A stretch of DNA of 64,000 nt from contig CAMARR010000003.1 in the NCBI GenBank assembly GCA_945860915.1, forward strand, positions 62,001-126,000, given 5' to 3'. The position numbers and the translations under genes were made by a program. Shown piece after piece: positions 12,901 to 61,548 of this stretch (its first letter is position 1; every line of letters starts with the position of its first letter). The notes beneath the pieces were generated by a model. It had not been told where the DNA came from. It searched no databases and saw only the letters and a program-made list of their open reading frames with translations. This stretch comes from Candidatus Kuenenia stuttgartensis (GTDB lineage Bacteria; Planctomycetota; GCA-002687715; CAIWVZ01).

Positions 12901-12980
12901 GGGGGCGAAGAGTACACCAGAAGGGGGACATGGCCGGCGCAGCTCAATAACTTCCTGTTCCGCAGAGCTACGATGACGAC

Positions 12981-13400: not shown

Positions 13401-13628
13401 GGCTTCGCCCAAGTCGGCGCTGAGTTCACGACCATTTTTCGGGCTTTCGATCACCTAGAGGCTCTGCAGGCCGTCAAACTGGGCTCGATACCCGGGGAAA
13501 AGGCGCTAATGGGCCAACTTTATTGCACCTTCAACATTCGCAGAGGTGTTCGAAGGCGCGTCATGCGTCAGAATCTTCTAGAGATACGAGTCGCTAAGTC
13601 GAAATAATGGGACTGCAGGAGTGTTTCG
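13401..13628 (+). promoter_or_regulatory. Leader region of the CoA-ligase operon with an imperfect hairpin
   Basis: 228 bases without an ORF. Contains an imperfect inverted repeat at 13528-13556: CCTTC-AACA against TGTT-(C)-GAAGG, nine pairs with one bulge and a 10-nt loop, not followed by a T tract. It may be an operator or leader structure for the downstream operon. A GGAG at 13618-13621 serves the TTG start at 13629. Confidence 0.3.
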
Positions 13629-40335: not shown

Positions 40336-40373
40336 CGGAGATGAATGCTAGCGAAGACTCATGCAACGCGCGG

Positions 40374-40880
40374 TCAGCCATCAAAGAGCTTGGCGCAGCA
40401 GACCTTGTACTTCTTGCCCGACCCACAAAAACACGGGTCGTTCCGTCCGAGCTTAGTGCCAGGGCGTTTGAACGGGACTTGCGGAGCATCACTGCGACGT
40501 CGCCCGCGCGTCGGGTCGGCGCACGCGGTCTGGAAGGCCGACCGTGCGGCTCCGACAGCCATGACGATCTCGAATGGACTGACGCCCGGCTGCTGCGCGA
40601 TTGAAAAAAGCAGAAACTCTTCGAGAAGGTCGGGGACATCATCAAGCCAAGCCTCGGACCCACCCACACGTGCGGGTAGATGGCTTGTCAGCATCTCGCG
40701 CACGCGCTCGCCGTCGAGATCGCGTGGCGTCACCGCAACATCTTCTGAACACACTGCGACCATGACTTCTAGAATCGGCGCAAGGGAAGCACCCAAGCGC
40801 TCCGTCGCACGACGACCGGCGTCTCCGTCACGAAATGACGCGGCGAGGAGTCGCCAGTAATCCACGAGACCGTCCGTCAT
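40374..40880 (-). CDS. SEC-C motif protein coupled to the MNIO enzyme
   Basis: 168 residues. The C-terminal 27 residues are a SEC-C zinc-binding motif (GRNDPCFCGSGKKYKVCCAK; CXC...CC). The N-terminal ~130 residues are an uncharacterised, mostly helical domain (YWRLLAASFRDGDAGRRATERLG, DDVPDLLEEFLLFSIAQQPGVS). It overlaps the upstream DUF692 gene by 4 nt (ATGA), so the two are translationally coupled. SEC-C binds zinc and often mediates ribosome or protein contacts. Here it may be an adaptor or, more speculatively, a cysteine-containing substrate of the neighbouring iron enzyme. Confidence 0.85.
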   Translation of the reverse strand: MTDGLVDYWRLLAASFRDGDAGRRATERLGASLAPILEVMVAVCSEDVAVTPRDLDGERVREMLTSHLPARVGGSEAWLDDVPDLLEEFLLFSIAQQPGVSPFEIVMAVGAARSAFQTACADPTRGRRRSDAPQVPFKRPGTKLGRNDPCFCGSGKKYKVCCAKLFDG

Positions 40881-42658: not shown

Positions 42659-42667
42659 GATGTCGAC

Positions 42668-44008
42668 TTATGTCAGAGATTCTGTGGCGACACCCATGAG
42701 ATGCGCCATCCAACGATCAACCATATCGCGCCGTCGCCCCTCAACCATGATGCGAAGCAGAGGCTCGGTCCCCGACCATCGGATGAGGACACGTCCCTCA
42801 CTGCCCATTTCCTGCTCCGCTGCCGCGATGGCCTCGGGCAATCCTGCGATTGCTGCGATGGGAACCTTGGCTTTCGCGTGAATATTCTTAAGCACCTGAG
42901 GGAAGGTCTCCATTTCACGCGCGAGCTCGGCCAGCGCCATGTCACGGCGCGTCATCACCTCTAGAACACGAAGGGCCGCATAAAGTCCGTCGCCCGACCA
43001 GCGGGCGCCTTCGCGAAAAATGATGTGCCCCGACTGCTCGCCACCGAGAACGGCTCCCATCTCGTCCATCTTTTGAGACACAAAGCGATCACCTACCGGC
43101 GTGATCTCAAGCTTGATGCCATCGTTCTTTACGAAGTGGTGAAGACCTAGGTTTGACATCACCGTTGTCACAAGCAAACGGTCGACGAGTTCACCTCGCG
43201 CTGCGAGATCCCGAGCAAGGATGCCCATGATGGCGTCGCCATCGCGCAGCTTGCCATCTTCGTCCAACATCAAGACTCGATCAGCGTCTCCATCAAGTGC
43301 AATCGCAATCGCCCCGCGATGCCGTCTGACCAGTGGCGCCATCGCTTCAACCGCGACGACTCCCGCGTTGTCGTTGATGTTGTGTCCTGTCGGCTCCGCG
43401 TTCACAACGACGACGGACGCACCCAGCGCATTCAGGAGCTCCGGTCCGATGGAAGACGCGGCGCCGTGCGCACAGTCGAGAATCAACGTGCGACCTACGA
43501 GGGACAGCTTCGTTAGCCGTTGACGCATAGCTGCGACGTAGCGATGCGATGCGCCTTCATCCTTGCTCCGGAGCGCCCGAGGCGCCGCGACGATGCCGGG
43601 GTCCTGATCAATGAGTGTCTCAATCCGGATCTCATCCGCGTCGGGCAATTTGCGGCCGTCACGTCCAAAGAACTTGATGCCATTGTCCGGCGCAGGATTG
43701 TGTGACGCCGAAACTACAATGGCGAGATCGAAGCCCTCTTCCCTCGCGATCCACTGCACGGCAGGCGTCGTGAGAATCCCACCGTCGGACACGGCAACTC
43801 CCGCCCCAAGGAATCCAGACGCTAGGGCATCGGTCATCCAGGGGCCCGACGTGCGTGTGTCGCGACCAATCAGAATGCGGCGTGAGCCACCCATTGACGC
43901 CACGTAGGCACCAGCAGCACGGCCATAGGCCTCGACACGTTCGCGTGTGAGAGCCCCAACGCCCGCGAGACCTCGAATGCCATCGGTTCCGAAATACTTG
44001 CGACTCAA
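42668..44008 (-). CDS. glmM: Phosphoglucosamine mutase
   Basis: 446 residues, TTG start, N-terminus LSRKYFGTDGIRGLAG (FGTDGIRG is diagnostic). Active-site serine loop VVSASHNPAPDNGIKFF, metal-binding ALDGDADRVLMLDE, sugar loop GEQSGHI, phosphate loop IRWSGTEPLLRIMVEG. Interconverts glucosamine-6-P and glucosamine-1-P for UDP-GlcNAc (peptidoglycan, LPS). Sits 9 bp after cdaR, the order conserved in Firmicutes and Chlamydia, where GlmM binds and inhibits the c-di-AMP synthase. Confidence 0.97.
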   Translation of the reverse strand: MSRKYFGTDGIRGLAGVGALTRERVEAYGRAAGAYVASMGGSRRILIGRDTRTSGPWMTDALASGFLGAGVAVSDGGILTTPAVQWIAREEGFDLAIVVSASHNPAPDNGIKFFGRDGRKLPDADEIRIETLIDQDPGIVAAPRALRSKDEGASHRYVAAMRQRLTKLSLVGRTLILDCAHGAASSIGPELLNALGASVVVVNAEPTGHNINDNAGVVAVEAMAPLVRRHRGAIAIALDGDADRVLMLDEDGKLRDGDAIMGILARDLAARGELVDRLLVTTVMSNLGLHHFVKNDGIKLEITPVGDRFVSQKMDEMGAVLGGEQSGHIIFREGARWSGDGLYAALRVLEVMTRRDMALAELAREMETFPQVLKNIHAKAKVPIAAIAGLPEAIAAAEQEMGSEGRVLIRWSGTEPLLRIMVEGRRRDMVDRWMAHLMGVATESLT

Positions 44009-44017
44009 CTCGCCCCC

Positions 44018-45163
44018 CTAGTTCGATGAACGAATCACGGTGACTTCCACGGGACTTGGCTCGACACTCTGCAACTTGAGGCCGGTCGGAATTCTGAAGA
44101 CCTCCACCGAAACCGACTCGGCGGCAAGCACTCGGGTTCCTTCTGAGACCGCCGCGCGCGCGACAAGGCGATCGGTGTCGATCTCAGCGCGCAACATTCT
44201 ACGGAGTTCCTCCAAACGAGAAGGATCGCGCCATGCGTCGACGATGGAACGAGCGCCCGACAACCGAACGGTCACGACGGGCCTCTCGCTGTCGAGCGGC
44301 TTGGGCAGCACAAATCGCCAGTTCGCTCCCGGTGACACGGCCAGACGCAGTGCGACCCGCGGCACCTCAATCGATGCGTCTTCGGCGGGGACGAAACTGA
44401 CCGTGGCCTCAATCACCTGGCGAGCGTCGAAACGAATGAACTTCTGACCGAACTCGGGTGGCAACGAGTTGAGGACGGTCTTAAAGTCCGACGTTCGCCC
44501 CCCACACGGGATCTGCAGCATCGCCTCCGAAATTGCACTTGGACCCTCAAGCCAAGACGCCGGACCGAGCACGCGCGCTGTGGGCGGATCAATTGCGACC
44601 TTTGCCGTCAGGGTCCCGGCGACGTCGAACGCTTGACCAATGAGCCTCACTTCTCGGGTTGCCAAGCGATCAAGGATCACCTGCACCGGCGGGAATAACT
44701 CCGCCGTGACAGTGCCGAGCCCCGTTTCGACGTCCTTGCCGTCGATTGCCCGTGGAGTCTCGTTGCCGCGCTCGCCAGGAGCGCGCTGTAGCCACGATTC
44801 GCGCAAGGCCACGCTCGCAGACACGCGGCGCGTGTCCTTGAGGCTACCCGCAAGCCTCTGCGGCCCGCGAATGACTAGCCTCGCGCGCGGTGTGTCAACT
44901 CTCCGAACGGCGACGTTCCCTTCCGGAGTCAGCAGCAATTCGCGACGCAATGCCGATGTCGGGCGACTCGCCGCGGCATCGGCGACCACCACATCGACTT
45001 CGCCGTCAAACAGCGTCACCTGCTGTTCGCGGTCAATGATCGCGATCAGAACGCTCGCGAGAATGATCGCGAGGATCTTTGGGAAAAGGTGGTCCGTGAG
45101 GAGCCCGCGGACGAACCCGTGACGTTCGCTCGTACGAGTCAAACGTTGATTGCCGGTGCTCAT
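44018..45163 (-). CDS. cdaR: YbbR-domain membrane protein, CdaA regulator
   Basis: 381 residues: one N-terminal helix (LFPKILAIILASVLIAIID), then YbbR-like repeats (ARLVIRGPQRLAGSLKDTRRVSASVAL; VQVILDRLATREVRL; AKVAIDPPTARVLGPASWLEG). Predicted extracytoplasmic with a cytoplasmic N-terminus. CdaR homologues modulate c-di-AMP synthesis by CdaA. The gene overlaps cdaA by 4 nt (ATGA) and precedes glmM, giving strong positional support. Longer than a two-domain YbbR protein and Arg/Val-rich in between. Confidence 0.88.
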   Translation of the reverse strand: MSTGNQRLTRTSERHGFVRGLLTDHLFPKILAIILASVLIAIIDREQQVTLFDGEVDVVVADAAASRPTSALRRELLLTPEGNVAVRRVDTPRARLVIRGPQRLAGSLKDTRRVSASVALRESWLQRAPGERGNETPRAIDGKDVETGLGTVTAELFPPVQVILDRLATREVRLIGQAFDVAGTLTAKVAIDPPTARVLGPASWLEGPSAISEAMLQIPCGGRTSDFKTVLNSLPPEFGQKFIRFDARQVIEATVSFVPAEDASIEVPRVALRLAVSPGANWRFVLPKPLDSERPVVTVRLSGARSIVDAWRDPSRLEELRRMLRAEIDTDRLVARAAVSEGTRVLAAESVSVEVFRIPTGLKLQSVEPSPVEVTVIRSSN

Positions 45164-45948
45164 GCCCCCTCCGTCACATCTGTCGCATCTTCGGGAGGCA
45201 CGGGAAGAAGTAGCACTTCCCTGAGGCGTTCGAGCGAAACTCCGGTTTCCAACTTACCGCGTCGGGCGACGGAAATACGCTGTGTTTCTTCCGACACCAC
45301 AATCGCAATCGCATCTGAATCTTCGGTCACTCCGAGAGCGGCTCGGTGTCGTGTACCAAGGGTTCGAGCCAACGTCGCGTTCTCGGATAACGGCAGCATG
45401 CAACCTGCTGCGACAATTCTCTCGCCGCGCAACAAAAGGGCGCCATCGTGGAGCGGAGAATCCTTGGAGAAAATCGACACGATCAGCGCCGGACCGACCG
45501 CCGCGTCAACCCGAACAGCCGCTGGCCCTTCGATCAGGCCTCCCAATCCGTCCCCGCCTTCTACAACGATGATCGCGCCAAGCCCCCGCTTGGCGAGTCG
45601 GTCGACCGCAGTCACAAGCTCCTCCGTCGCACCTTTGCTGACGCGAGAAAGCCCGAGAAGGAACTCGGAGTCACCGAGTGAAACCAAGGCTTGCCTCAAC
45701 TCAGGCTGAAAGACCACGAGAAGCCCGATGACGACAAAAGCCATTCCTCGATCAGCGATCCACTGAATACGCTGGAGATCGAGGGCCTTTGCAAGCGAAA
45801 TGCCGCCGACAAGGAAGACTACGACGACAAAAATGAACCCCTTGAGAACTCCTGATCCCCGGGTCTCCTGCAAGAAGCGAATGCAGGCGTAGATGACCAT
45901 CGACAGGATGAGGATCTCGATCGCCGTCCGAAGCCAGTCCATGTTCAT
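45160..45948 (-). CDS. cdaA: Diadenylate cyclase (c-di-AMP synthase)
   Basis: 262 residues: three N-terminal helices (ILILSMVIYACIRFL; GFIFVVVVFLVGGISLA; GMAFVVIGLLVVFQPELRQAL), then the DisA_N catalytic domain with DSPLHDGALLL (DGA) and TLGTRHRAALG (RHR). It condenses two ATP into c-di-AMP at the membrane, governing potassium/osmotic and cell-wall homeostasis. ATGA overlaps with folP upstream and cdaR downstream show tight coupling. Confidence 0.96.
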   Translation of the reverse strand: MNMDWLRTAIEILILSMVIYACIRFLQETRGSGVLKGFIFVVVVFLVGGISLAKALDLQRIQWIADRGMAFVVIGLLVVFQPELRQALVSLGDSEFLLGLSRVSKGATEELVTAVDRLAKRGLGAIIVVEGGDGLGGLIEGPAAVRVDAAVGPALIVSIFSKDSPLHDGALLLRGERIVAAGCMLPLSENATLARTLGTRHRAALGVTEDSDAIAIVVSEETQRISVARRGKLETGVSLERLREVLLLPVPPEDATDVTEGA

Positions 45949-46805
45949 GGAAGAACTCCGGCTGCGCTCACGGCCTCTGCAACTTTCACGGCGTCGGCGG
46001 CGAACCCGACGTGATGAACGCGTACGAGTTCAACCGAGGCCTTTGCACATCCAGCCACGACAACCGCAGTCGCTACATCACGATCCTTGGGGTCGGTTCG
46101 CCCGGTCAACACACCAAGGAAAGCCTTACGCGACGGCCCAACACAAAGCGGGTACCGCCCCATGCGCAGCTGATCAAGTTGCGCGAGCAAGGCTAAATTG
46201 TGCTCCGCGGATTTTGCGAAACCGAGCCCGGGATCAAGGATGACGCGCCTTGAGTCAATCCCTGCAGACTCTGCCCGGCTCACCGCCAACGCGAGCTCCG
46301 CGACGACGTCCGTAACGACAGCGTTGTAGTTCGCCATCGATTGCATCGTTCTTGGATTTCCACGACGGTGCATGAGGATGACGGCGGCGTCGGTTCTTGC
46401 GACCACTTGGGACAACGAGGGATCCTCACTCAACCCACTGACGTCGTTGAGGATCGATGCGCCGGCTCGCCACGCTTCATCAAACACGGCAGCCTTGGTT
46501 GTGTCGACGCTGATAGGAATGCCGATGCGCTCGACGAGTGCGCGCACGACCGGAACAACCCGACGAAGTTCGTGCTCAAGGGAAATCGCGTCCGCCATCG
46601 GCCGTGTCGACTCGCCTCCGACATCGAGGACCAATGCCCCCGCAGCAACCATGAGCTTCGCCGCGGCAACGACCTCTTCGAGATCAGCATAGGACCCGCC
46701 ATCGCTGAACGAATCCGGCGTGATGTTGAGAATCCCCATGATGGCCGTCGGGCCACCCGCATCGAGCACGCGACCACGCCCAAGTGGGAGATCGAATCGA
46801 CGCAT
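45945..46805 (-). CDS. folP: Dihydropteroate synthase
   Basis: 286 residues from the ATG at 46805 (MRRFDLPLGRGRVLDAG); the longer frame runs into lptE. Motifs AIMGILNITPDSFSDGG, DVGGESTRPMAD, PISVDTTKAAVFDEAW, ASILNDVSG, VILMHRRGNPRTM, ILDPGLGFAKSAEHNLALL and VGPSRKAFLG. Joins p-aminobenzoate to the pterin for folate. Overlaps cdaA by 4 nt. Confidence 0.97.
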   Translation of the reverse strand: MRRFDLPLGRGRVLDAGGPTAIMGILNITPDSFSDGGSYADLEEVVAAAKLMVAAGALVLDVGGESTRPMADAISLEHELRRVVPVVRALVERIGIPISVDTTKAAVFDEAWRAGASILNDVSGLSEDPSLSQVVARTDAAVILMHRRGNPRTMQSMANYNAVVTDVVAELALAVSRAESAGIDSRRVILDPGLGFAKSAEHNLALLAQLDQLRMGRYPLCVGPSRKAFLGVLTGRTDPKDRDVATAVVVAGCAKASVELVRVHHVGFAADAVKVAEAVSAAGVLP

Positions 46806-46812
46806 GGCGGCT

Positions 46813-47322
46813 TCAGCCGCTCCGGGTCGCGTCGGCGCGTACGAATGTCGCCTTCTGAAGTTCGAGGACGATGTCCTCGCCGAGCTCACGCATGAGCTTG
46901 GCGCGAACGGCCTCAAGATCTTCCCCACGGTCGCGGATGCCCTCGGCACGTCGCGTCATTTTGAACTGCGAAATCACGCGCCCCGTGGTTCGCTCTGCAA
47001 GCACGACTTCAACCTCGGCGATGACACCTTCTTCAAGTGTCACTTCCTTCCGATCGACGACGAGTGGCGCACGACCAATGCGGAGAATGCGCGTCGAAAG
47101 GACGGCCTCGGCGTGCGCTAGGTCACGAACAGTCACATCCGTGCGCCGCATTAACTGTCGTGTCACTTCGCGAGTCAGCGAAATCTCATCGCCACGGTAA
47201 AACGTGTCGTTGGTGCCCATGCGAACTGCAATGGTGCTGACACCCTCGGGCATCAGAGAGCCTGTCGAGTAGCCACAGCCGGCGACACAGAGCGCAAGCA
47301 CGATTCGACGGAATCGGATCAA
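46813..47322 (-). CDS. LptE-like LPS-assembly lipoprotein
   Basis: 169 residues. Lipoprotein signal with a Cys followed by the family hallmark: LALCVAGCGYSTGSLMPEGV-STIAVRMGTNDTF. LptE plugs the LptD barrel that inserts LPS in the outer membrane. The segment SLTREVTRQLMRRTDVTVRDLAHAEAVLSTRI fits the short LptE/DUF799-like family of PVC and delta-type bacteria. ATGA overlap with the bamD-like gene. Implies an outer membrane with LPS-type lipid export. Confidence 0.85.
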   Translation of the reverse strand: MIRFRRIVLALCVAGCGYSTGSLMPEGVSTIAVRMGTNDTFYRGDEISLTREVTRQLMRRTDVTVRDLAHAEAVLSTRILRIGRAPLVVDRKEVTLEEGVIAEVEVVLAERTTGRVISQFKMTRRAEGIRDRGEDLEAVRAKLMRELGEDIVLELQKATFVRADATRSG

Positions 47323-48491
47323 TTCGATCCCCCACTAGGTCGGGTGGACGGAAGAGATTCGGACGACGTTTTGGGTTCGATCACCGTCGGACGAGAGTCC
47401 GTTGTGGACGCGCGCGAGGCCGGTCCCCGGCCTCGTGCAACCGCCAATCGCCGCTCTTCGGCTTCAAGTTGCTCTTGAGCAACTTCAGGAACCACGTCAA
47501 CCAGCGCCGCGATCCGCAGACGCGCTCGGTCTGCAGCATTCGATTTGGGCCAGTCCGCCACAAGCTTCAAGTAGTAGTAACGGGCACTGTAAGCCTTGCC
47601 CATACTCTCATACCAATCGGCGACTTTGTACATGCGATCGGATTCAATGGACTCGAGCCATTGCAGCATGCGTAACGCATCATCCCGCCATTCGCCTTGT
47701 GGGAAATCCTTGATGTAGGTGACGATGCGTTCGCGCGCATCCGCGTTGATTTTTGGATCGTAGTAGTCGCCCTTGACTCGCCGATAACGGCAGTAGCCCT
47801 GGTAGTACCGCGCAGCCGTGTACCACTCGGAGTTGGTGTAATTCTGTGCGAGGAGATCGAATGCTGGCGTGGCTAACTCCCAGTCTTCGTCTTCCACGAA
47901 GTACCTCGCAAGCTGCCACTGTGCATCCGCGGCGCGGGCGGAATTAGGGTAAGTCGAAACTATCCACTTCATGATCTCGACGCCGCGCCCACGATTCGAG
48001 AAGATCCCAAAGAACGATGACATCCGCCCCTCGATGTACTCGCGTCCCGATACGTAGGCGTGCTCTTCGATGACCTTAGATCGATCTGAAATGCTGTGGT
48101 TGAGAGCATAAGACTTGCATGCCGTGAAGCACCTGCCGTAGTCGCCGTCGAGGAACGTGGACTCCACCCACAAGTACCGCGAAACCTCGTCGTATTCGGA
48201 GGCCGGAAAGTCCTCGACAAACTCCTCGAAAAGGTCGCCGGCTTCTTCGAAGTCCTTGGCGTCAAACGCGGCCTTGGCTCCATCAAACGCGGCCTTCTGC
48301 GCAACACGCTGCTCTGGTGTCACTTCGATGCGACCACGACGAAGTACCGCAAGCTTTTCTTTCTCTTCGCGCCCGGGATCGGATCGGAGGAACTCTGGAA
48401 GAGACTGATTCGCCTTACGCCCGAGGGCCGAGCACCCCGAAAGGACGCCAAGGAGTAGCGCAAGTAGAAGAAGTGAGGATCGAGGGCGCAT
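47319..48491 (-). CDS. BamD-like outer-membrane assembly lipoprotein with TPRs
   Basis: 390 residues from the ATG at 48491 (MRPRSSLLLLALLLGVLSGC, lipobox LSGC). TPR/Sel1-like helical repeats follow (FEEAGDLFEEFVEDFPASEYDEVSRYLWVESTFLDGDY; AADAQWQLARYFVEDEDWELATPAFDLL; SARYYYLKLVADWPKSNAADRARLRI), the YfiO/BamD pattern. The Ser/Arg-rich tail (RASTTDSRPTVIEPKT) is unstructured. Part of the beta-barrel assembly machinery by homology. First gene of the long minus-strand operon. Confidence 0.82.
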   Translation of the reverse strand: MRPRSSLLLLALLLGVLSGCSALGRKANQSLPEFLRSDPGREEKEKLAVLRRGRIEVTPEQRVAQKAAFDGAKAAFDAKDFEEAGDLFEEFVEDFPASEYDEVSRYLWVESTFLDGDYGRCFTACKSYALNHSISDRSKVIEEHAYVSGREYIEGRMSSFFGIFSNRGRGVEIMKWIVSTYPNSARAADAQWQLARYFVEDEDWELATPAFDLLAQNYTNSEWYTAARYYQGYCRYRRVKGDYYDPKINADARERIVTYIKDFPQGEWRDDALRMLQWLESIESDRMYKVADWYESMGKAYSARYYYLKLVADWPKSNAADRARLRIAALVDVVPEVAQEQLEAEERRLAVARGRGPASRASTTDSRPTVIEPKTSSESLPSTRPSGGSN

Positions 48492-48736
48492 GGGACTCCG
48501 GAGGGTCAAGGCGGCTCGCACCCCCCAAAAGTGGAAGCGATCGAATCACCGTCCCTCAACCGAGATCGATCCTAGGACCGTGGAGGGAGGGGGTCAAGGA
48601 CGACAAATGACAAGTACCCCCTAACTCGGCTCACACGTGCATGTCAGCTTATCGAGATGAAATTCGAGTCCCGCTCCTTAGTACAATGCTCACGACACGC
48701 CAGCGACTCAAAAGCGCCGAACTTAGGAGCCCGCAC

Positions 48737-49207
48737 TTGCCCCAAGAGGGATATGAAATCGAACGAAAATTCCTGCTGTCAGGAACTCCGCCGTCGGTCC
48801 TAGATTCCCCAAAGCTGGTCGTTAAGCAGGGCTGGATTCCTGGGAAAAAACTCAAGGAACGACTTCGGATGACGAGCTACGAAGACGGAAGCGCTCGGTA
48901 CTTTCGCACCGTGAAATCGGGGTCGGGGCTCGTCAAGATCGAGATCGAAGAGCAGACCAACGCGGAGCTGTTCGACTACCTCTGGCCACTGACCGTCGGA
49001 CGGCGTGTAACGAAACTGCGTTACTTGGTGCAAGAGGTCGGGTTTCTCTGGGAAGTCGATGTCTTCACCGACCGCGAACTAGTCCTCGCCGAAGTCGAGT
49101 TGCCGACGCCTGAGTCACTTGCCCCCATGCCCGCCTGGATCCTCCCGTACATGGTCCGTGAAGTCACGGAAGACTCGTCCTACTCCAACTCGTCGCTGGC
49201 CTTCTGA
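48737..49207 (+). CDS. CYTH-domain protein (triphosphatase-like)
   Basis: About 156 residues from a TTG at 48737, which has AGGAG 8-9 nt upstream; an ATG at 48641 would add a poorly conserved N-terminus. The CYTH signature EIERKFLL (ExExK) opens the domain, followed by VVKQGWIP, ERLRMTSYEDGSARYFRTVKSGSG and WEVDVFTDRELVLAEVEL. CYTH enzymes hydrolyse inorganic or nucleoside triphosphates or form cAMP. The 3' end overlaps recO on the opposite strand by 28 nt. Confidence 0.82.
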   Translation: MPQEGYEIERKFLLSGTPPSVLDSPKLVVKQGWIPGKKLKERLRMTSYEDGSARYFRTVKSGSGLVKIEIEEQTNAELFDYLWPLTVGRRVTKLRYLVQEVGFLWEVDVFTDRELVLAEVELPTPESLAPMPAWILPYMVREVTEDSSYSNSSLAF

Positions 49208-49992
49208 GACAAGGGGTTCTCCGGGCGTAGGAACCTCGCTGCGCAGAGTTCCTTCTCCAGCACGTTCTCGAGACAGGCATCTAGGACGGCTCGCATGGCG
49301 AGGGCCCCCGAGTCCGAGACGCTGAGCGCCACGGCATCCGCAATAAGTGCGTCGCGTGCTGTCAGAAGAAGTCGGCGTGGCGCCGATGCAAGAGGTATTA
49401 GGCCAGGAGTCGACCCCTGTAGGCAACTGCTGCAGACAACTCCCCCGCGTCCCGGCGAGATCTTCACTGCAGCCTTCTCAGGAGCCTTCTTGCGGCACAA
49501 GGCACAACCTTCGAGCATCGGCGCAAATCCCGCATATCCCAACCACCGGAGATCGAACCGTGCCGTGACGGCGGCGACGGATGTGGGCGGCGACACCTCA
49601 AGCCCGGCGAGCGTTTCGACCGCTAGATCGAATCGAGCCGTATCGGGATCCTGATCCCTATGACCTTCGTGAAGGATCTCGGTGACATGACACGCGGCGT
49701 GAAATCGGTTCAAGTCGTCTCGCAGCCCTGGGAAACCAGTAACGACCCGCCAGCGCGTCAACAGGTTCAGGCTGTCGCCTTTGCGCCATTTGATCGTAGC
49801 TTCGCCAAGTTGCGCGAGATCTAGCGGACCGAGCAAATCCGGATTGGGCTTTCGGATGCCCTTGGCAAGAACAGAGGCTCGGCCTCGTGTTCGAGTCATC
49901 AAGCGTCCGATTTGACTATTCTCGCTGTAATCCTGACGCTTCAGGACTAACGCAAGCGTCGTTTCCCCGGGGTCCTTCTGCGACACGGTCAC
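49180..49992 (-). CDS. recO: Recombination mediator RecO
   Basis: 270 residues. N-terminal OB fold (TLALVLKRQDYSENSQIGRLMTRTRGRASVLAKGIRK), helical middle, and the zinc finger CALCRKKAPEK ... GGVVCSSCLQ. RecO loads RecA with RecFR on SSB-coated DNA and anneals strands. Its start overlaps the stop of the CNNM-type gene as ATGA. Confidence 0.92.
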   Translation of the reverse strand: MTVSQKDPGETTLALVLKRQDYSENSQIGRLMTRTRGRASVLAKGIRKPNPDLLGPLDLAQLGEATIKWRKGDSLNLLTRWRVVTGFPGLRDDLNRFHAACHVTEILHEGHRDQDPDTARFDLAVETLAGLEVSPPTSVAAVTARFDLRWLGYAGFAPMLEGCALCRKKAPEKAAVKISPGRGGVVCSSCLQGSTPGLIPLASAPRRLLLTARDALIADAVALSVSDSGALAMRAVLDACLENVLEKELCAARFLRPENPLSQKASDELE

Positions 49993-51320
49993 TCAGCCGC
50001 CGTGCGAATCCGAAGGCGTGAGATGCGTCGCTCATCAGCATCCACCACGGTAATCACCACGCCATCCTTCTCGAGCGCCTCGCCACACTTCGGGATCCGC
50101 CCGAGCTGCGAATACACATAGCCGCCGAGCGTGTCGTACGACTCGTCTTCCGGAAGCCCAACACCCATTTTGCGATTGAGATCGTCGACCCGAACGGTCG
50201 CCGCCACATCAGCCTCGTAGTCGCCATGCATCACAATGTCGGCTGGCGCCGCAGCCTCCTCGGTGTCGAGTTCGTCGTGAATTTCACCAACGATTTCTTC
50301 GATCAGATCCTCAATGGTCGCGATTCCTGCGGTGCCTCCGTATTCATCGACGACGACCGCTAGATGCGCCCGACCCGATCGGAGTTCACGCAGGAGTTCA
50401 GGCACCGGCTTGCTCTCCGGCACAAACATTGCGGGTCGCATGATCGAACGGAGAGTCGGAAACTCATGGGCCGGTTTGCCGACATGCGCTAGGAGATCTT
50501 TGACGAATAGGATTCCGACGATTCGATCAACGGTGCCTTCATGCAGCGGCACCCGGGAATGGCCCATTTCATGCGCCTGACGAATGGCTTCTGGAAAGGG
50601 CGTCTCAACGGGTAACGAAACCATGCGCGTCCGCGGCGTCATGACTTCCGCAACCGGTCGATCTCGAAAGCCGATCAAGTTGTGAAAGATCGCGGCCTCG
50701 TCCTTCCGCAGGACGCCGTCTTTTTCACCTTCGCTGATCGCATCGAGCACCTCGTCGCGAAATTCGGCTGCATCATCGACCTTGTCCTCGGGTACACCCA
50801 CGATGCGCGCCAAGCCCGACCCAAGTCGCGACATGGCCCATCGGACCGGAGTAAGGACGAAATCCGTCGCGAGAATGAATGGCAACAAGAGGAGGAGACC
50901 GCGCTCAGGCTTGCGTCGCACGGCTTCGCGAAGCGTCCCGTATAGCCCGATGATGACGACCGCGAGAAACGCGCCGAGGCGCTTGACGGCATCTCCAAGC
51001 TCTGACGGAGCGCCCTCGCCTCCAATTCCGGTCCCAACGATCAGGACGGTGAACGCGACAAGCCGGACGATCACCATCGAGTCAATGAGCTCGAATTCAC
51101 GTTCAAGCAACGCGTCGATGCGCTTCAGCCGTGGCGCTTCAACCATGTCCTGCAGGCGATTACGCCGCCGATTGCGTATGGCGCTTTCACCCGCGATGGC
51201 CAGAGCCAAGAACAGCCCGGACACCCACCAGATCAACGAGAATGGGGCTAACGCCGACGCCACTCCGGGGTTAGTGGCGGCCGAGAGACTCGGCAGAACA
51301 TTGAGGGACGAGATGCTCAC
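49989..51320 (-). CDS. CNNM/CorC-type hemolysin-like transporter
   Basis: 443 residues. Several N-terminal hydrophobic helices (SLIWWVSGLFLALAIAGES; IVRLVAFTVLIVGTGIGG; LLLLLPFILATDFVL) of DUF21 type, a CBS pair (EVMTPRTRMVSLPVETPFPEAIRQAHEMGHSRVPLHEG ... SIMRPAMFVPESKPVPELLRELR) and a C-terminal CorC_HlyC domain (HLAVVVDEYGGTAGIATIEDLIEEIVGEIHDELD). Family members mediate Mg2+/Co2+ efflux or homeostasis. Coupled to recO by a 4-nt overlap, upstream in the operon. Confidence 0.93.
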   Translation of the reverse strand: MSISSLNVLPSLSAATNPGVASALAPFSLIWWVSGLFLALAIAGESAIRNRRRNRLQDMVEAPRLKRIDALLEREFELIDSMVIVRLVAFTVLIVGTGIGGEGAPSELGDAVKRLGAFLAVVIIGLYGTLREAVRRKPERGLLLLLPFILATDFVLTPVRWAMSRLGSGLARIVGVPEDKVDDAAEFRDEVLDAISEGEKDGVLRKDEAAIFHNLIGFRDRPVAEVMTPRTRMVSLPVETPFPEAIRQAHEMGHSRVPLHEGTVDRIVGILFVKDLLAHVGKPAHEFPTLRSIMRPAMFVPESKPVPELLRELRSGRAHLAVVVDEYGGTAGIATIEDLIEEIVGEIHDELDTEEAAAPADIVMHGDYEADVAATVRVDDLNRKMGVGLPEDESYDTLGGYVYSQLGRIPKCGEALEKDGVVITVVDADERRISRLRIRTAAE

Positions 51321-51645
51321 AAGAAGACTGAAACTCTAACTCCCTCCGAGGATCTAGCGCAGGCCGCCTAGTACATGCGCATTCAATTTCGACATAACCA
51401 TATTCAGAATAGTACTTTATGGCATTTTAGATGGATGGTCGAATCGGGATCCGGACTCGTCTTACGGATCGAGGGTCCGGTGGCCTCGACCACCTGAAGT
51501 CCTTTCCGTTACCTCAACGAGAAATCGTTCCGAGAATCAAACAAATCCACGGATGACAGAAACGGCGCGTCCGTATGATCTTGAACCCAACGGAGGCAAA
51601 CCATGGCGGATTACGCCATGAGGCCTCCAACAACCGGAGATCACT
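51321..51645. other. Intergenic region with an AT-rich promoter-like patch
   Basis: 325 bases between divergent genes. 51381-51430 is an AT-rich patch unlike its surroundings, with a -35-like TTCGAC but only a weak -10, so it may hold promoters for either gene. TATGAT at 51574-51579 is another possible -10 for the YHS gene. A two-tier hairpin precedes the YHS gene (51592-51628). Confidence 0.4.
51592..51628 (+). repeat. Two-tier inverted repeat in the leader of the YHS gene
   Basis: Outer stem GGAGGC (51592-51597) / GCCTCC (51623-51628) encloses an inner perfect stem CATGGCG (51602-51608) / CGCCATG (51614-51620) with a GATTA loop. The structure sequesters a GGAGG and two ATG codons but leaves the true site CCGGAG (51634-51638) free before the ATG at 51646. 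It may act as a 5' stabiliser or regulatory leader. Confidence 0.5.
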
Positions 51646-52128
51646 ATGCGTTCATTCCTTGCCCTCGCGTTGTTCGTGTCCTTGTTTGCCTCATCGGCGA
51701 TCGCGCAGTCCACCATCATGAACAAGGACTGCACCGTCATGTCGAAGCCGGCCAAGAAAGAGTTCTTCGTAGACACCCCCAAGGGCCGCGTCTACCTGTG
51801 CTGCAAAGGCTGCCTCAAGAAGGCCGGCGCAGACGTCGAAGCGACTTACGCCAAGGCGTATCCCGAGACCAAGAAGCTCGAGTCGGCAACGTGCCCGGTC
51901 ACCGGCGAGAAGCTCAACGACAAGGCTGTCACCGTGACCTACAAGGGTTACGAGTTCAAAGTCTGCTGCAACGACTGCGCCAAGAAGTTCTCCGAGAAGG
52001 GTGACGCGGGCGACGCATTCGTCCACAAGCTGACCTCGAAGAAGGAAGACAAGCCGGCCAAGAAGGAAGACAAACCGGCGAAGAAAGAAGACAAGCCGGC
52101 CAAAAAGGAAGACAAACCGAACGGCTGA
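51646..52128 (+). CDS. Secreted double YHS/TRASH-type cysteine protein with Lys-rich tail
   Basis: 160 residues, GGAG before the ATG; signal peptide MRSFLALALFVSLFASSAIA. Two consecutive metal-binding modules: CTVMSKPAKKEFF-x-VYLCCKGC (residues ~28-60) and CPVTGEKLNDKA-x-FKVCCNDC (~84-112), each with a lone Cys before a CCxxC cluster as in YHS/TRASH domains. Four near-identical KKEDKPA repeats form a highly charged tail. Secreted copper/heavy-metal binding is likely. Well isolated between convergent and divergent neighbours with its own terminator. Confidence 0.85.
   Translation: MRSFLALALFVSLFASSAIAQSTIMNKDCTVMSKPAKKEFFVDTPKGRVYLCCKGCLKKAGADVEATYAKAYPETKKLESATCPVTGEKLNDKAVTVTYKGYEFKVCCNDCAKKFSEKGDAGDAFVHKLTSKKEDKPAKKEDKPAKKEDKPAKKEDKPNG
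52039..52119 (+). repeat. 21-nt tandem repeat encoding KKEDKPA
   Basis: Four in-frame units (last one truncated) of about 21 nt at the 3' end of the YHS gene, encoding KKEDKPA. Synonymous differences between copies (AAG/AAA, GCC/GCG) show some age. Repeat number is probably variable between strains. Confidence 0.8.
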
Positions 52129-52151
52129 TAGTTCGAGTCTTTACTTTGAGA

Positions 52152-52190
52152 CCGACGAGGGCGTTGGCGTCAGTGCCAGCGCCCTGTCGG
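52152..52190. terminator. Strong hairpin between convergent YHS and glycosyltransferase genes
   Basis: Inverted repeat CCGAC-(G)-AGGGCG-T-TGGC, loop GTCAGT, GCCA-G-CGCCCT-GTCGG: 15 Watson-Crick pairs with one bulge and one mismatch, starting 23 nt after the YHS stop. No long T tract on either strand, so it may work as a bidirectional, partly Rho-assisted terminator. Confidence 0.55.
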
Positions 52191-52250
52191 CTACCTAAGG
52201 GGCCCCTGCGGGTCCTCGTCCACTTGAATCAACACCTTTCCCGCCCGTTC

Positions 52251-53354
52251 TCACACGAGGCTGAGGTAAAGGTCAGCGTGACGCCGCGCGCATGAGTCCC
52301 ATGTAAAATCGCGGGCGCGCTCGAATCCACGCGCCGAAAGATCATCCCGCCGGTGCCGGTCTCGAAGAACGCGATCGAGTGCCAACGCAAGGGAATGTGG
52401 ATCGCCAACTTCGAAGTACTCGGCGGCGTCACCCGCAACCTCTGGGATCGCTGAAGTTCGAGCGGCAACCACGGGTGTCCCCGATGCCATCGCTTCGATC
52501 AGGGGGATTCCGAAGCCTTCCAGTTTCGATGCAAGCACGTATGCCGACGCTTCTCGAAACAAGTCAGGGAGATCTTCCCGCGCGACATAGCCTGGCAGAA
52601 ACACGTCCGATTCAAGGCCCAAATGGCAGATCTCGTCTTGGAGTTCGTCCAAGCCAGACTGATGTTTCCCGGCCAGCACGAGAGCGTGGCCCGCCATGCT
52701 TGAATCGCGGAGCTCGGCAAATGCGCGCACGATCGTAATCGGGTCCTTTCGATGTCGGATGGTGCCAAGCGCGAGGACATAGGGACGCGCGCTCATGCCA
52801 TAGCGGTCGCGCGCGAGGGCAGGTCCAACCGGTCGAAAATCGCTATCAACTCCATGCGGAATCACGTGAACGCGAGACGCCGCGCTCGGCGCCAAAGCGC
52901 AAAGTGTGTCACGAGTCGATCGCGAGGGAACGACAATCGCGTGCGCGGTTGCCAGTGCGTGAAAAACGCGAAGTCGATGCGGCGACAACATGCCACCTTC
53001 TCCAGGGACTTGCCCCGGAGCCGGAAGGTCATGCACGGTCACGACCTTGCGAGCAGATGCGAAGTGCGACATCGCCGCGACCGGCGCGTGAAGCACACGG
53101 ATGCCCTCCGCCGCGACCACCTGCGGCAACACAGTTTCGCGCCACAGGGCGCGGCCTGGCCCGGGTCGGGCAGACACTAATCGCCCTGGTTCGCTTACGC
53201 GAGGAGCGGGGTGCCCTTCACGCGTAATCACTGACACCGTGAGTTCCGGCGCAACACGAGGAAGAGTCTCGGCGAGTCGACGCGCGTAGCGCTCGACTCC
53301 CGTTTCCTCCGCAACCTCGAGGCAGGTGAGGTCCAGTCCGACATGAAGCGTCAT
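52251..53354 (-). CDS. GT4-family glycosyltransferase
   Basis: 367 residues. N-terminal GT4 pattern HVGLDLTCLEVAEETGVERYARRLAETLP; Rossmann middle RVHVIPHGVDSDFRPVG; C-terminal nucleotide-sugar site YVLALGTIRHRKDPITIVRAF, VFLPGYVAREDLPDLFREASAYVLASKLEGFGIPLIEAMASGTPVVA (EX7E: E in LEGFG and E in IEAM). A retaining mannosyl- or related transferase for cell-surface glycans. Its start overlaps the HAD gene by 4 nt (ATGA). Confidence 0.92.
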   Translation of the reverse strand: MTLHVGLDLTCLEVAEETGVERYARRLAETLPRVAPELTVSVITREGHPAPRVSEPGRLVSARPGPGRALWRETVLPQVVAAEGIRVLHAPVAAMSHFASARKVVTVHDLPAPGQVPGEGGMLSPHRLRVFHALATAHAIVVPSRSTRDTLCALAPSAASRVHVIPHGVDSDFRPVGPALARDRYGMSARPYVLALGTIRHRKDPITIVRAFAELRDSSMAGHALVLAGKHQSGLDELQDEICHLGLESDVFLPGYVAREDLPDLFREASAYVLASKLEGFGIPLIEAMASGTPVVAARTSAIPEVAGDAAEYFEVGDPHSLALALDRVLRDRHRRDDLSARGFERARDFTWDSCARRHADLYLSLV

Positions 53355-54025
53355 CCGAGGATCGCCTCAAGGAATGCAGAGGGCGGGTCCATCGCCGTAA
53401 AAGCGTGATCCGGATCCAGGGCTGCGAGGGTCTCGTACGTGCAGCCGCCAGTGGCGACAGCCACGGCCACCGCATCGCCATATCGGGCTGCGAGCACGTC
53501 GTTTTCGGTGTCGCCGATCATCACCACGTCGCGTGGCCCCGCAGGGCGGTGGCCAAGTTCGGCGGCACGCGCGCGCGCGATGCGCACCAACTCGCCGCGA
53601 TGCCGCGAATCGCACCCGTAGGCACCGACCATGAAATGGTCCGTGATCTCGTCTTTGGCCAGCTTGATTTCCGCGCCGCGACGCACATTTCCGGTCACTA
53701 GGCCGACCATGACGTTGGGCATCGACGACAGTTCATCCAGGACTGCCCGGACACCCGGCAACAAGAGACTCGGTGCTGCCGAGACCTCACGCGAGAGATT
53801 GGCAAGGTAGGCAGCGAGAATCGACGCGTGATCCTCGGATTTCCCTCCGGCCCGGCGGATTCCTTCGTCGATGATGTCGGGATCGGTGCGTCCGTGGAAC
53901 CCATACCCCTCGAACACATCGGTTGTTCCATAGTGGGCTGTAAAAGCACCTTCAATGCTCCGTCGTCCGATACCAACCGGCCGGATTAAGGTGCCATCAA
54001 TGTCGAAGAGAACGAGCCGTCGCAT
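53351..54025 (-). CDS. HAD-superfamily phosphatase (Gph-like)
   Basis: 224 residues. HAD motifs: LFDIDGTLIRP (DxD nucleophile/acid), a capping helical region with FTAHYGTTDVFEGYGFHGRTD, LVTGNVRRGAEIKLA (motif II Thr/motif III area) and MIGDTENDVLAAR (motif IV). Close to phosphoglycolate phosphatase-like enzymes; the actual substrate cannot be told. Transcribed divergently from the radical SAM fusion gene, with the glycosyltransferase downstream. Confidence 0.88.
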   Translation of the reverse strand: MRRLVLFDIDGTLIRPVGIGRRSIEGAFTAHYGTTDVFEGYGFHGRTDPDIIDEGIRRAGGKSEDHASILAAYLANLSREVSAAPSLLLPGVRAVLDELSSMPNVMVGLVTGNVRRGAEIKLAKDEITDHFMVGAYGCDSRHRGELVRIARARAAELGHRPAGPRDVVMIGDTENDVLAARYGDAVAVAVATGGCTYETLAALDPDHAFTAMDPPSAFLEAILG

Positions 54026-54063
54026 CGGGTCGATCCTAGCACCGTGATAAACTCTTGATTCCG

Positions 54064-56418
54064 ATGGACCAACCTCCCTACACCGTCCTCCTCACTGGCG
54101 CGACGGGCTACCTAGGCCGACGCCTCCTTTCCCGCCTCGTGGCTTCGGGACACCGCGTCGTCGCCCTTGTCCGTCATCGCGACGGATTGGGGGCGTTGCC
54201 AGCGGGCGAGGTAACAGTCATCGAGGCGGACTTAGATCAGCCGATCGGGATCAAATTGGGATTTGGCGTCGACGTCCTCGTTCACGCAGCGGCGCTGATT
54301 GACTACGACGCAGGATGGGCCAAGCTTGAACGAACCAACGTCCAAGGCTCGAAGCACGCGGCCGAGTTTGCCATCCGTTCAGGAGCTAAGCGCGGCATCC
54401 TCATCTCGAGTGTCGCAGCAGCAGGACCACTCTTCCCAACGTCGTTGCCAGCCGGAGAAGCCACCGGTCGAGACCCCGACACGGAGTACGGTCGGTCGAA
54501 GCTCCTTGGCGAAACTGCGTTCAGCGATTCTTTTGCGGCCGCGAAGCTCGAATCCCTCATCCTGCGGATGAGCAACTTGGTCGGCGATGGACACCCAGGA
54601 ATCGTTGAGCCGTTGTTTGCCGCGGCCCACGGTGGGGATCCAACCGCGCTGATTGCGGAATGGAATCAACATCGGTGGCAGCCTCTCCATGTTCTCGATG
54701 CCGCCGAAGCCGTGCTGAGCGCCGTGCAATTCGGTGGCTCTGGGATCTACACGCTCACTGATGGCACGACACCGACCGTCGGAGATCTGGTTCGAGATGT
54801 TGCTTGGTCTCTTCGCGGGTTTGGCTTGACAACCACCATCCCGCCGCTTGCATTCGGCGGACCACAAAGCCCCGAACGCATCCATTACGCCTATGTCCCG
54901 ACCCGCGCCTTTGCGGAGTGGAATTGGGCCGCTACTCGGACGTTTTCTCAAACGGTTATCGAACTTGCGGCATCGCGCGGACTGAAACGGGTCCGGACCG
55001 GTGCATTTCGTGTCGAAGGACCGCTTAAGACGGTCCTTCTCAACACTCCTGCCGCAGGCATGAAGTTGTCTCGCGATATGGCGGGGGGACTTGGCTTCGT
55101 CCATGAGTCCGACGATCGGTTCCAGCCACTCGACCTTCTATGGCTCGCTGCCCGACTTGAGAATGTGGGGTGGCCAGTCGAAGTGATCGACGGCAACCTC
55201 ATGGAGTTCACCGTCGGCGAACTCCTCTTTTATCTCGCCCGCACTCACGTCGATGCCATCGTTGCGGACGTCAACTTGCCGACGTTCGAAGCGGACCTCG
55301 TCTTCCTCAAGACGCTCAAGGAAGCGAGTCGCGTGCGCGTCATTGCGAAAACGGTTCTTTCACAAGGTGGCTTCATCGAGCGCCTGCTTCTCGAAGCGGG
55401 AGTCGATCTCGTCCTCCTCGGCGAATGTGACCTCACCATCGAACGGGTCATTTCCGGGGACGATGTCCGGGGAACCGCTCGCCTCGTTGACGGCCACGTC
55501 GAGGTGACCCCCGAAGAGAAGCTCGAGGATCTCGACCAACTGCCGATCCCGGCCCGCCATTTCCTCCCGAAGGAGGGCTACTCGTATTCGCTGCTTCCGA
55601 AGGACGGTTTCACCACCATCCAGACATCACGCGGGTGCCCTTATTCGTGCGGCTATTACTGCCCCTATCCGATGACCCAGGGTAAGGCATGGCGCGCCCG
55701 CTCTGCGGCCCATGTTGTCAAAGAGATCGAGGCATGTGTCGCCGCGGGCTACCGCCACTTCCTGATGCGAGACGCAACGTTCACGCTAGACCGCAAGCGT
55801 ACGCTCGACATCTGTCGCGAAATTTCCGCACGTGGCCTGCCCATCACCTTCTGGTGCGAGACGCGCATCAACTGCCTGGACGCGGAAGTTCTCGAAGCGA
55901 TGGCAAAAGCTGGTTGCAAGGGAATCAACTTTGGACTCGAGTCGGGGGACGACGAAATCCTCCGATCAGGCGCAAAGTCGGGCGTCGACGTCAAGAAAAT
56001 CCGGAGCATTCTGGCAGAGACCGATCGGCACGGGATCATCTCGCACCTGCTCGTGGTCGTTGGACTTCCACAGGAGACTCGGCGCTCCATCATGGGAACC
56101 TACCTCCTCCTCGGCGAACTTCCGGCGCGCACTCTCGGCGTCACGGGCATCACACCGTTCCCAGGCACGCAGCTGTGGAAGGATGCCGAGGCTAAGGGGT
56201 GGGTTAAGTCGCGTGAGTGGAGCCTCTACGGCGGCAACCAGGCCGTCATGAGCACCGACCACCTCACACAGGCAGACATCCGTTTTGCTGCCGAGATGCT
56301 GTTCACCTACTTCAATCTGACCCGACCTGGTCAGGGAACAGCGGAAGCGATTGAAGCCCACCGCGTCCGTATGCGCGAATGGGTCGAGCACGGCCTCGAT
56401 CGGTTGATTCCAGTCTGA
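54064..56418 (+). CDS. SDR epimerase-like / B12-binding / radical SAM fusion protein
   Basis: 784 residues from the ATG at 54064 (an in-frame TTG lies 9 nt upstream). Residues ~5-300: extended short-chain dehydrogenase with TGATGYLGRRLL (GxxGxxG), ISSVAAAG and YGRSK (YxxxK). ~325-460: a cobalamin-binding-like Rossmann domain (AARLENVGWPVEVIDGN ... VDAIVADVNLPTFEADL ... LLGECDLTIERVISG), without the DxHxxG base-off motif. ~515-720: radical SAM barrel with RGCPYSCGYYCPYP, whose cysteines are C525, C529 and C533 (CX3CX3C rather than CX3CX2C), GINFGLESGDDEIL and VVVGLPQETRRS. The protein could epimerise or modify a sugar or lipid-linked glycan; the product is unknown. Confidence 0.8.
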   Translation: MDQPPYTVLLTGATGYLGRRLLSRLVASGHRVVALVRHRDGLGALPAGEVTVIEADLDQPIGIKLGFGVDVLVHAAALIDYDAGWAKLERTNVQGSKHAAEFAIRSGAKRGILISSVAAAGPLFPTSLPAGEATGRDPDTEYGRSKLLGETAFSDSFAAAKLESLILRMSNLVGDGHPGIVEPLFAAAHGGDPTALIAEWNQHRWQPLHVLDAAEAVLSAVQFGGSGIYTLTDGTTPTVGDLVRDVAWSLRGFGLTTTIPPLAFGGPQSPERIHYAYVPTRAFAEWNWAATRTFSQTVIELAASRGLKRVRTGAFRVEGPLKTVLLNTPAAGMKLSRDMAGGLGFVHESDDRFQPLDLLWLAARLENVGWPVEVIDGNLMEFTVGELLFYLARTHVDAIVADVNLPTFEADLVFLKTLKEASRVRVIAKTVLSQGGFIERLLLEAGVDLVLLGECDLTIERVISGDDVRGTARLVDGHVEVTPEEKLEDLDQLPIPARHFLPKEGYSYSLLPKDGFTTIQTSRGCPYSCGYYCPYPMTQGKAWRARSAAHVVKEIEACVAAGYRHFLMRDATFTLDRKRTLDICREISARGLPITFWCETRINCLDAEVLEAMAKAGCKGINFGLESGDDEILRSGAKSGVDVKKIRSILAETDRHGIISHLLVVVGLPQETRRSIMGTYLLLGELPARTLGVTGITPFPGTQLWKDAEAKGWVKSREWSLYGGNQAVMSTDHLTQADIRFAAEMLFTYFNLTRPGQGTAEAIEAHRVRMREWVEHGLDRLIPV

Positions 56419-56568
56419 CAATAGACATGCGGCGCATCCCACGGCCGCCGGAGCAGTCGAATTGACAGGTCGTATGGGCCACATGGGCCACTTCGAATAC
56501 GCACCTCGTCTGATTCTCGCCGGGGGGGCGAGACAGCAACATGGATCCCTGTTCTTCCCGGTGTAGCC

Positions 56569-57003
56569 ATGACATCCAACTCCAAACTCCCGCGCCACGA
56601 AGTCGATGTCGCCACCGTCGGCGAATCGGTGAGAACCGCCGCCCAGCGTATGCAACAACGCCGGGTCGGCTGCGTCGTCGTGGTAGATCGCGAAGATCGC
56701 CCAATCGGAATCCTGACGGACCGTGACCTTGCAATCCGAGTGGTTGCAGCGGGCCTCAACCCGCTCGACGTCAAAGTCGGCGAGGTCATGACCCCCAACC
56801 CCACCACGGCTCCCGAGGATGCCGATTCCGACCGTCAGTTAACCGCCATGCGTTCAGCGCGCGTCCGAAGGCTGCCTCTGGTTGACCGCAACGGTCGCTT
56901 GAGAGATCTCATCGCACTCGATGATCTTCTCGCGCTTGAGGCTCACCGCCTCGGTACGGTCGCCGACCTGCTGTACGGCACCGGCCCTAAGTCCTCTAGT
57001 TAG
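56569..57003 (+). CDS. Two-CBS-domain protein
   Basis: 144 residues; two CBS motifs: VATVGESVRTAAQRMQQRRVGCVVVVD, DRPIGILTDRDLAIRV, VGEVMTPNPTTAPEDADSDRQLTAM and RRLPLVDRNGRL. Stand-alone CBS pairs sense adenine nucleotides. The stop codon overlaps that of the convergent MBL gene (4 nt). Confidence 0.9.
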   Translation: MTSNSKLPRHEVDVATVGESVRTAAQRMQQRRVGCVVVVDREDRPIGILTDRDLAIRVVAAGLNPLDVKVGEVMTPNPTTAPEDADSDRQLTAMRSARVRRLPLVDRNGRLRDLIALDDLLALEAHRLGTVADLLYGTGPKSSS

Positions 57004-60252: not shown

Positions 60253-61548
60253 ATGACGGACCCGGACCGCGACGACCTCATTCAGCACGTTCTGAGAGTG
60301 CAGCGCACGATCCGCACGTGCGAGGGCTGTGGGCAATGCTGCACCGAGGCTTTCAATAGTGTTGCCATCCTTCCCGTGGAAGCGAGGCGCGTCGCTGTTC
60401 ACGTCGCGACGTGGTCGGCCGATCGCCAGAAGGCGTACCGCGCTCGGATCGAATCCGCGATCGAGCAGTTTTCCTTGCGTGTTGGCGGCAAGAACCGCAA
60501 CTACACGTGCCCTTTCCTCGAATCAGACATGTCGTGCGCGCTTCCGTTCGACGTGAAGCCGGTCGCCTGCCTCGCATTTAATCCGGTGTCGCCGGATGCG
60601 TGCGAGATGGACCCGCGGCGATTCGACGCGGCCCACGCGACTGCAGCTGCCCGCAACCAAGAAGCCGGGTTCCCGGAGCGTCGTGTTCCCATACCCGTGG
60701 CGGTTCTCGCGGCGCTCGACCGCAAGATTCCACAGCGCGGAGCAGGATCAGCGACCACCGAGCCGGGCACGGCGCCTCGCAAATCGCTTCCGGCAAAGCC
60801 CATCGCGCTGCCCCGCCTCCTTTCCAAGTGGGGCGTCTGTTCGCGCAAGGAGGCAGAAGATCGCATCAACAACGGTCGAGTCGCAGTCGATGGGAATGTC
60901 GTGCGAGACGTCCTGTTCGAAGTTCGCCCACAGCGAGCCAAGATCACCGTGGACGGAAAGCCCGTTTCAGAAGGCAACGGTTCACGCACACACTCGTGGC
61001 TCGCTATGAACAAGCCCCGAGGCGTCGTTACGACGACCAAAGACCCGAAGGGGCGCCAAACGATCATGGACATCCTTGGCGATGGGGCGCGCCCGGGAGT
61101 CATGCCCGTTGGACGACTCGACGCCGACAGCGCGGGGCTCCTACTTCTCACGAGCGACCACGCCACCGCAGACAAGCTCCTTGATCCGCTCACACATGTC
61201 CTCAAGACCTATCGAGTCAAAGTGGCGGGACATCTCAGCCCAGACACGTGCCGTCGCCTTCTGTCGGAGACAATCGAAGTCGAAGGCCTGAAACTCGGCC
61301 CATTCGACGATTTAGAAATCGTCTCTGAGGGCCCCAAGTCGACGTGGGTGCTGGCATCGCTACGAGAAGGCAAGAACCGTCAGGTACGCAGGCGTTTCGC
61401 GCACGAGGGCCATGAGGTCGAGGTCCTCGTTCGCACGCGATTTGGGCCCGTCAGCCTTGGCGACCTCAAACCAGGTGAAGTTCGTCCACTTACTTCGGAA
61501 GAGGTATCACGGATACTCGGGACGTCGGGGCTGCGACATCCTCAATGA
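60253..61548 (+). CDS. YkgJ-like cysteine domain fused to an RluB/RsuA-type pseudouridine synthase
   Basis: 431 residues. Residues 1-165: Zn/Fe-S-type YkgJ domain with TCEGCGQCCTE (C23, C26, C29, C30) and later YTCPFLESDMSCALPFDVKPVACLAF. After a linker (~168-178) comes an S4 domain (PRLLSKWGVCSRKEAEDRINNGRVAVDG) and the synthase core (SWLAMNKPRGVVTTTKDP; catalytic D290 in GRLDADSAGLLLLT; KTYRVKVAGHLS; REGKNRQVRRRF). RsuA/RluB enzymes isomerise a uridine in 16S or 23S rRNA. A YkgJ fusion to this enzyme is not an arrangement I know. It overlaps the convergent exporter gene by 59 nt. Confidence 0.88.
   Translation: MTDPDRDDLIQHVLRVQRTIRTCEGCGQCCTEAFNSVAILPVEARRVAVHVATWSADRQKAYRARIESAIEQFSLRVGGKNRNYTCPFLESDMSCALPFDVKPVACLAFNPVSPDACEMDPRRFDAAHATAAARNQEAGFPERRVPIPVAVLAALDRKIPQRGAGSATTEPGTAPRKSLPAKPIALPRLLSKWGVCSRKEAEDRINNGRVAVDGNVVRDVLFEVRPQRAKITVDGKPVSEGNGSRTHSWLAMNKPRGVVTTTKDPKGRQTIMDILGDGARPGVMPVGRLDADSAGLLLLTSDHATADKLLDPLTHVLKTYRVKVAGHLSPDTCRRLLSETIEVEGLKLGPFDDLEIVSEGPKSTWVLASLREGKNRQVRRRFAHEGHEVEVLVRTRFGPVSLGDLKPGEVRPLTSEEVSRILGTSGLRHPQ

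Follow-up and report, generated by a model that had tools for sequence, protein, structure and literature searches.

What one protein would do with both an extended SDR and a radical SAM enzyme is the question raised by a gene in the window, by which is meant the whole 64,000-nucleotide stretch of planctomycete DNA analysed here. The gene spans 54064..56418 on the + strand. A preliminary description took its product to be an NAD-dependent sugar epimerase/dehydratase joined to a cobalamin-type radical SAM enzyme with an atypical cluster motif. The question is whether this architecture is real, what the radical SAM half most resembles, and which reaction the two halves would carry out together.

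Domain layout of the fusion

The reading frame begins with an ATG at 54064, ends with a stop at 56416-56418 and encodes 784 aa with no internal stops; a TTG at 54055 offers another possible start. Residues 1-305 (54064..54978, +) constitute an extended SDR domain, the proposed ketone reductase, recognised by fold matches and by the Pfam Epimerase family (PF01370, residues 8-223, E 1.1e-24). A Rossmann-type domain follows at the N-terminus of the radical SAM part (residues about 321-510; 55024..55593, +); it occupies the position of a B12 domain without the B12 signature, and the alignment with AprD4 begins at its residue 321. The radical SAM core (residues about 515-756; 55606..56331, +) matches PF04055 over residues 520-682 (E 1e-15). 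The intact frame and the two Pfam matches establish that an SDR and a radical SAM enzyme share one chain, as first described.

The motifs claimed for the gene were also recovered by direct reading. The nucleotide-binding GxxGxxG is GATGYLG (residues 12-18; 54097..54117, +) and the catalytic YxxxK is YGRSK (residues 142-146; 54487..54501, +). C525, C529 and C533, spaced CX3CX3C, lie in CPYSCGYYC (55636..55662, +) with no other cysteine nearby; the corresponding stretch of AprD4 is CPYPCRFYC. An AlphaFold2 model of the whole chain, used for the fold comparisons, has a mean pLDDT of 85.9 and a pTM of 0.78.

Conservation of the fusion across one order

The assembly is a draft in 23 contigs, and a sequencing or assembly artefact, either an indel within the motif or a false fusion, could in principle produce both unusual features. 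This explanation is practically negligible, since the same fusion and the same cysteine spacing recur in four more species, each assembled independently. The complete fusion occurs in five genomes of one planctomycete order, the window's own included. The copy in G002, of the same genus, is full length at 74% identity, and those in G004, G006 and G009, of the same order, are full length at 51-52%. All five read CPYSCG(Y/F)YCPYP with identical spacing, so that the alignment of close homologues leaves no room for an indel. When 392 Planctomycetota genomes were searched with the AprD4 model at E 1e-70, only the five genomes with the full fusion responded; a contig pattern scan, whose reach was limited to close relatives, returned the G002 contig.

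A sixth copy, in G010, is a contig-end fragment (L042, G010:C222, 3-1490, −) of 42% identity that ends before the cysteine motif. GxxGxxG is conserved in all six copies. The five complete fusions thus carry both motifs of an extended SDR, whereas YxxxK is lost in G010, which reads RGASW where the others have YGRSK. The catalytic Tyr and Lys are gone, and the reductase of this copy may be dead or altered.

Between the window's genome and G002, dN/dS is about 0.2 for the SDR and about 0.12 for the radical SAM core, values that are rough with dS near saturation, and changes are most frequent at third codon positions. From these substitutions, purifying selection seems to act on both halves.

The radical SAM half and AprD4

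By sequence profile and modelled fold, the closest known protein of the radical SAM half is AprD4. The NCBIfam AprD4 model (NF033070) scores 254 bits on the fusion against 158 for the next model, HpnJ (TIGR03471), and this order is reversed in the scanned relatives outside the AprD4 and fusion clade, where HpnJ or BchE ranks above AprD4. The top PDB sequence match is the AprD4 structure 6fd2 (E 1.9e-58), spanning residues 321-756. The same entry, AprD4 with paromamine, is ranked first by Foldseek (E 1e-34, target TM 0.89), with the next radical SAM enzyme by fold at a target TM of 0.76. AprD4 and the five fusions form a clade with support of 100/98-99 in three trees, and the clade persists when one or the other of two unstable long-branch rows is left out.

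This grouping rests on profile, fold, tree and motif together, because pairwise identity does not set AprD4 (about 30%) above relatives with the canonical motif (26-32%) and the AprD4 branch is long, at about 2 changes per column. The five fusions score 254-280 bits with the AprD4 model, short of its curated equivalog cut-off of 500 bits, and the fusion is therefore not filed as an AprD4 equivalog. The undistinguished identity and a score of half the cut-off leave room for a radical SAM half that is related to AprD4 and performs another radical reaction, such as an epimerisation, a dehydrogenation or a ring rearrangement of the type expected of an HpnJ/BchE relative, with the SDR resolving or preceding it. 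This alternative is rather unlikely, given that the HMM ranking, the fold ranking, the tree clade and the shared motif all point to AprD4.

The cysteine motif had been presented as atypical, one residue longer than the canonical CX3CX2C. It is not new, because AprD4, the closest characterised enzyme, has the same CX3CX3C spacing in FGCPYPCRFYCPYP. A relative in G008 reads CPYGCSYCPYP, which differs by one residue between the second and third cysteines. A split-gene relative in G127 has CX3CX3C too (CTFSCASYC); its position shifts between trees, and shared ancestry of the motif was not adopted as an explanation there. If the relationship to AprD4 holds, CX3CX3C would suggest membership of the AprD4 lineage among uncharacterised proteins.

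The middle domain and the question of cobalamin

The cobalamin-type domain of the preliminary description was not supported by comparison with Pfam. PF02310, the B12-binding family, reaches only E 0.075 and 13.3 bits on the middle domain against a cut-off of 32.1, and the domain contains no DxHxxG. The same model gives no match on AprD4 and clear ones elsewhere: 6e-24 for the control P0003, 2e-12 and 2e-24 for two canonical relatives, with G008 and G127 in between. The sequence thus indicates a middle domain that keeps the position of the Rossmann fold and has lost the B12 signature, as in AprD4.

The reading first offered was that of a B12-radical SAM enzyme attached to an NAD-dependent sugar epimerase/dehydratase; such an enzyme would depend on cobalamin and might, for instance, be a methylase. 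The fusion belongs to the same superfamily as such enzymes, and its overall fold also resembles the B12-radical SAM enzymes MgmA and TsrM, but the PF02310 result, set against the scores of the canonical relatives and the control, the missing DxHxxG and the closer match to AprD4 make this highly improbable, and a B12 enzyme was rejected on the first two of these grounds.

The SDR half and its cofactor

Fold searches place the SDR half beside WbmG, MoeE5 and GalE at target TM values of about 0.6-0.78. GalE-type enzymes hold on to their NAD through an acidic residue that follows the second strand, whereas an Arg at this position favours NADPH. All six fusions have an Arg there (VVALVR and equivalents), and this conserved residue suggests that NADPH is the cofactor. 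The SDR thus shares fold and GxxGxxG/YxxxK motifs with WbmG, GalE and MoeE5, whose solved enzymes bind NAD, and probably differs from them in cofactor. Of the NAD-dependent sugar epimerase/dehydratase originally proposed, the extended SDR stands, while its role is better read as that of a reductase partner.

The identity of these fold neighbours as NDP-sugar enzymes raises another alternative, in which the SDR acts first or separately as an NDP-sugar epimerase or dehydrogenase that prepares the substrate and the radical SAM half modifies the same NDP-sugar. A split locus in G008, where a Gfo/Idh enzyme accompanies an NDP-sugar-type SDR, is in keeping with it. The Arg in place of an acidic residue in 6/6 fusions argues against it, as does the AprD4/AprD3 precedent, a reductive process with a glycoside as its substrate, and it is quite improbable.

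A proposed two-step reaction

On the way to apramycin, paromamine is dehydrated by AprD4, after which AprD3, a partner enzyme that depends on NADPH, brings the C3' deoxygenation to its end (PMC5461906; PMC11033246). By analogy, the fusion would be a single-chain counterpart of AprD4 plus AprD3, a diol dehydratase and ketone reductase making a deoxysugar-containing glycoside, a reading to which we assign a probability of roughly 0.57. The suggestion that the two domains act in succession on a single sugar-type substrate gains support from this precedent.

The reaction that we infer would begin with SAM cleavage by a [4Fe-4S] cluster on C525, C529 and C533. The resulting 5'-deoxyadenosyl radical would take H from a carbon of a sugar-ring vicinal diol, which would then lose water to become a ketone, as in an AprD4-type 1,2-diol dehydratase. 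The N-terminal SDR would then work in the reductive direction, using NADPH to convert the ketone into the deoxysugar of the final glycoside. A small glycoside or glycan built by the adjacent GT4 glycosyltransferase is the probable substrate, and the neighbouring HAD phosphatase might clear a phosphate if the substrate is phosphorylated. Where an SDR shares its chain with an AprD4-type enzyme, the simplest reading places both steps on that chain. The points against it are the identity of ~30%, the long branch, the score at half the curated cut-off, the loss of Tyr and Lys of YxxxK from the SDR of G010 and the presence of the GT4 and HAD genes in G008 and G011 where the fusion is missing.

Genomic neighbourhood

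The fusion gene is divergent from a pair of genes encoding a HAD-family phosphatase (53351..54025, −; PDB 2hcf, E 2.6e-31) and a GT4 glycosyltransferase (52251..53354, −), which overlap by 4 bases. The C-terminal half of the GT4 protein is MshA-type (PDB 7qsg, E 6e-15). An MshA-like acceptor, inositol phosphate, is not claimed for it, as the match covers that half only; the genome does have an inositol-1-phosphate synthase-type gene.

This divergent pair flanks the fusion in 6/6 genomes, and the GT4 gene, present in eight genomes, adjoins the HAD gene in every one of them. In G008 and G011, however, the pair lies near metallo-hydrolase and rhomboid genes at the same locus without the fusion. 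Two histories would account for this, loss of the fusion from G008 and G011 or its insertion in the other genomes; the GT4-HAD pair can function without it, and the adjacency may be inherited synteny. The adjacency is the weaker evidence because the pair also occurs alone. The view that the neighbouring glycosyltransferase fits thus agrees with its constant place beside the fusion and is tempered by these two genomes.

In family f2 of the order, neither the fusion nor the GT4 has a strong match, and the HAD protein has a single weak one. The joint absence of all three genes from G001, of the same genus, was dropped as evidence of common function; it is uninformative because a contig ends inside a relative of the gene that flanks the fusion in G002, and the assembly gap may hold the three genes.

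Two other genes of the window are recorded here in their own right. A 431-aa frame at 60253-61548 (+) encodes a CxxCxxCC-type Cys-rich domain and an S4/pseudouridine synthase in one protein; the Cys-rich part falls just under the Pfam cut-off (21.3 vs 23 bits), and the protein is full length in 3/3 genomes of the genus, while in other genera its halves match separate places. At 51646-52128 (+), a 160-aa protein has a Cys-rich TRASH-like segment, C-terminal KKEDKPA repeats and a weak Pfam match only.

Split relatives

The SDR and the radical SAM enzyme are separate only in the distant genomes G008 and G127, where an SDR still adjoins the radical SAM gene. An SDR kept apart in every relative, which would have told against the preliminary description, is not what the relatives show. 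At locus L044 of G127 the radical SAM gene (7674-9011, −) overlaps the SDR gene (6781-7677, −), amid GT4 genes, an O-antigen ligase-type gene and a sulfotransferase. The order in G008 is SPASM radical SAM, Gfo/Idh, SDR, radical SAM with the canonical motif, SDR. In these split pairs, an SDR and such a radical SAM enzyme are again found side by side in sugar-related loci, a point in favour of the proposed two-step reaction.

Two side observations concern similar clusters. G127 carries near-identical regions at G127:C1 18000-36000 (L044) and 39500-57000 (L045), about 22 kb apart and 79-99% identical in protein gene by gene, each with the split SDR and CX3CX3C radical SAM pair and glycosyltransferases. 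On plasmid NZ_CP106952.1 of Eleftheria terrae, a cluster at 5621-14462 (L053) combines a PIG-L deacetylase and a pair of SDRs with glycosyltransferases of WecB type and of family GT4; it also has two radical SAM proteins, next to each other, in which the cluster motif is the canonical CX3CX2C.

Novelty and significance

A literature search, with most subscription journals outside its scope, found no description of a radical SAM-SDR fusion of this kind, and the fusion looks undescribed. What is already known is CX3CX3C as a feature of AprD4, and in the best reading the fusion would work like AprD4 plus AprD3. Within the same literature, AprD4-type radical SAM diol dehydration appears in aminoglycoside pathways only. 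Neither aminoglycoside genes among the nearby genes scanned (GT4, HAD, CBS, metallo-hydrolase, rhomboid, PilZ) nor a close AprD4 homologue in the plasmid collection was found. Somewhat short of even odds, and so tentatively, the fusion may be a natural one-chain deoxygenase, a radical diol dehydratase plus ketone reductase, whose deoxysugar belongs to a planctomycete glycoside pathway unconnected with antibiotics, and an optional module on a conserved glycosyltransferase-phosphatase pair. If so, a fused relative in environmental Planctomycetota would mean that the same chemistry serves other glycans, and a covalently coupled two-step catalyst would be useful for deoxysugar production.

Comparison with known systems

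HpnJ (TIGR03471) and other HpnJ/BchE-like radical SAM proteins belong to the same superfamily as the fusion, and HpnJ is its next-best model. They fall outside the clade of AprD4 and the fusions, however, and nearly all examined have the canonical CX3CX2C; in both of those scored with the B12 model, the B12 domain can be recognised.

AprD4 shares with the fusion its fold, its CX3CX3C motif, a Rossmann domain devoid of the B12 signature, an AGGLG segment near the start of that domain and membership of one clade. The fusion differs in its sequence (about 30% identity, 254 of 500 bits), in its planctomycete rather than actinomycete host and in the SDR on the same chain. The proposed likeness to AprD3 is one of role, that of the reductase partner to an AprD4-type enzyme; AprD3 is a separate protein, whereas the fusion carries its SDR on the same chain as the radical SAM enzyme.
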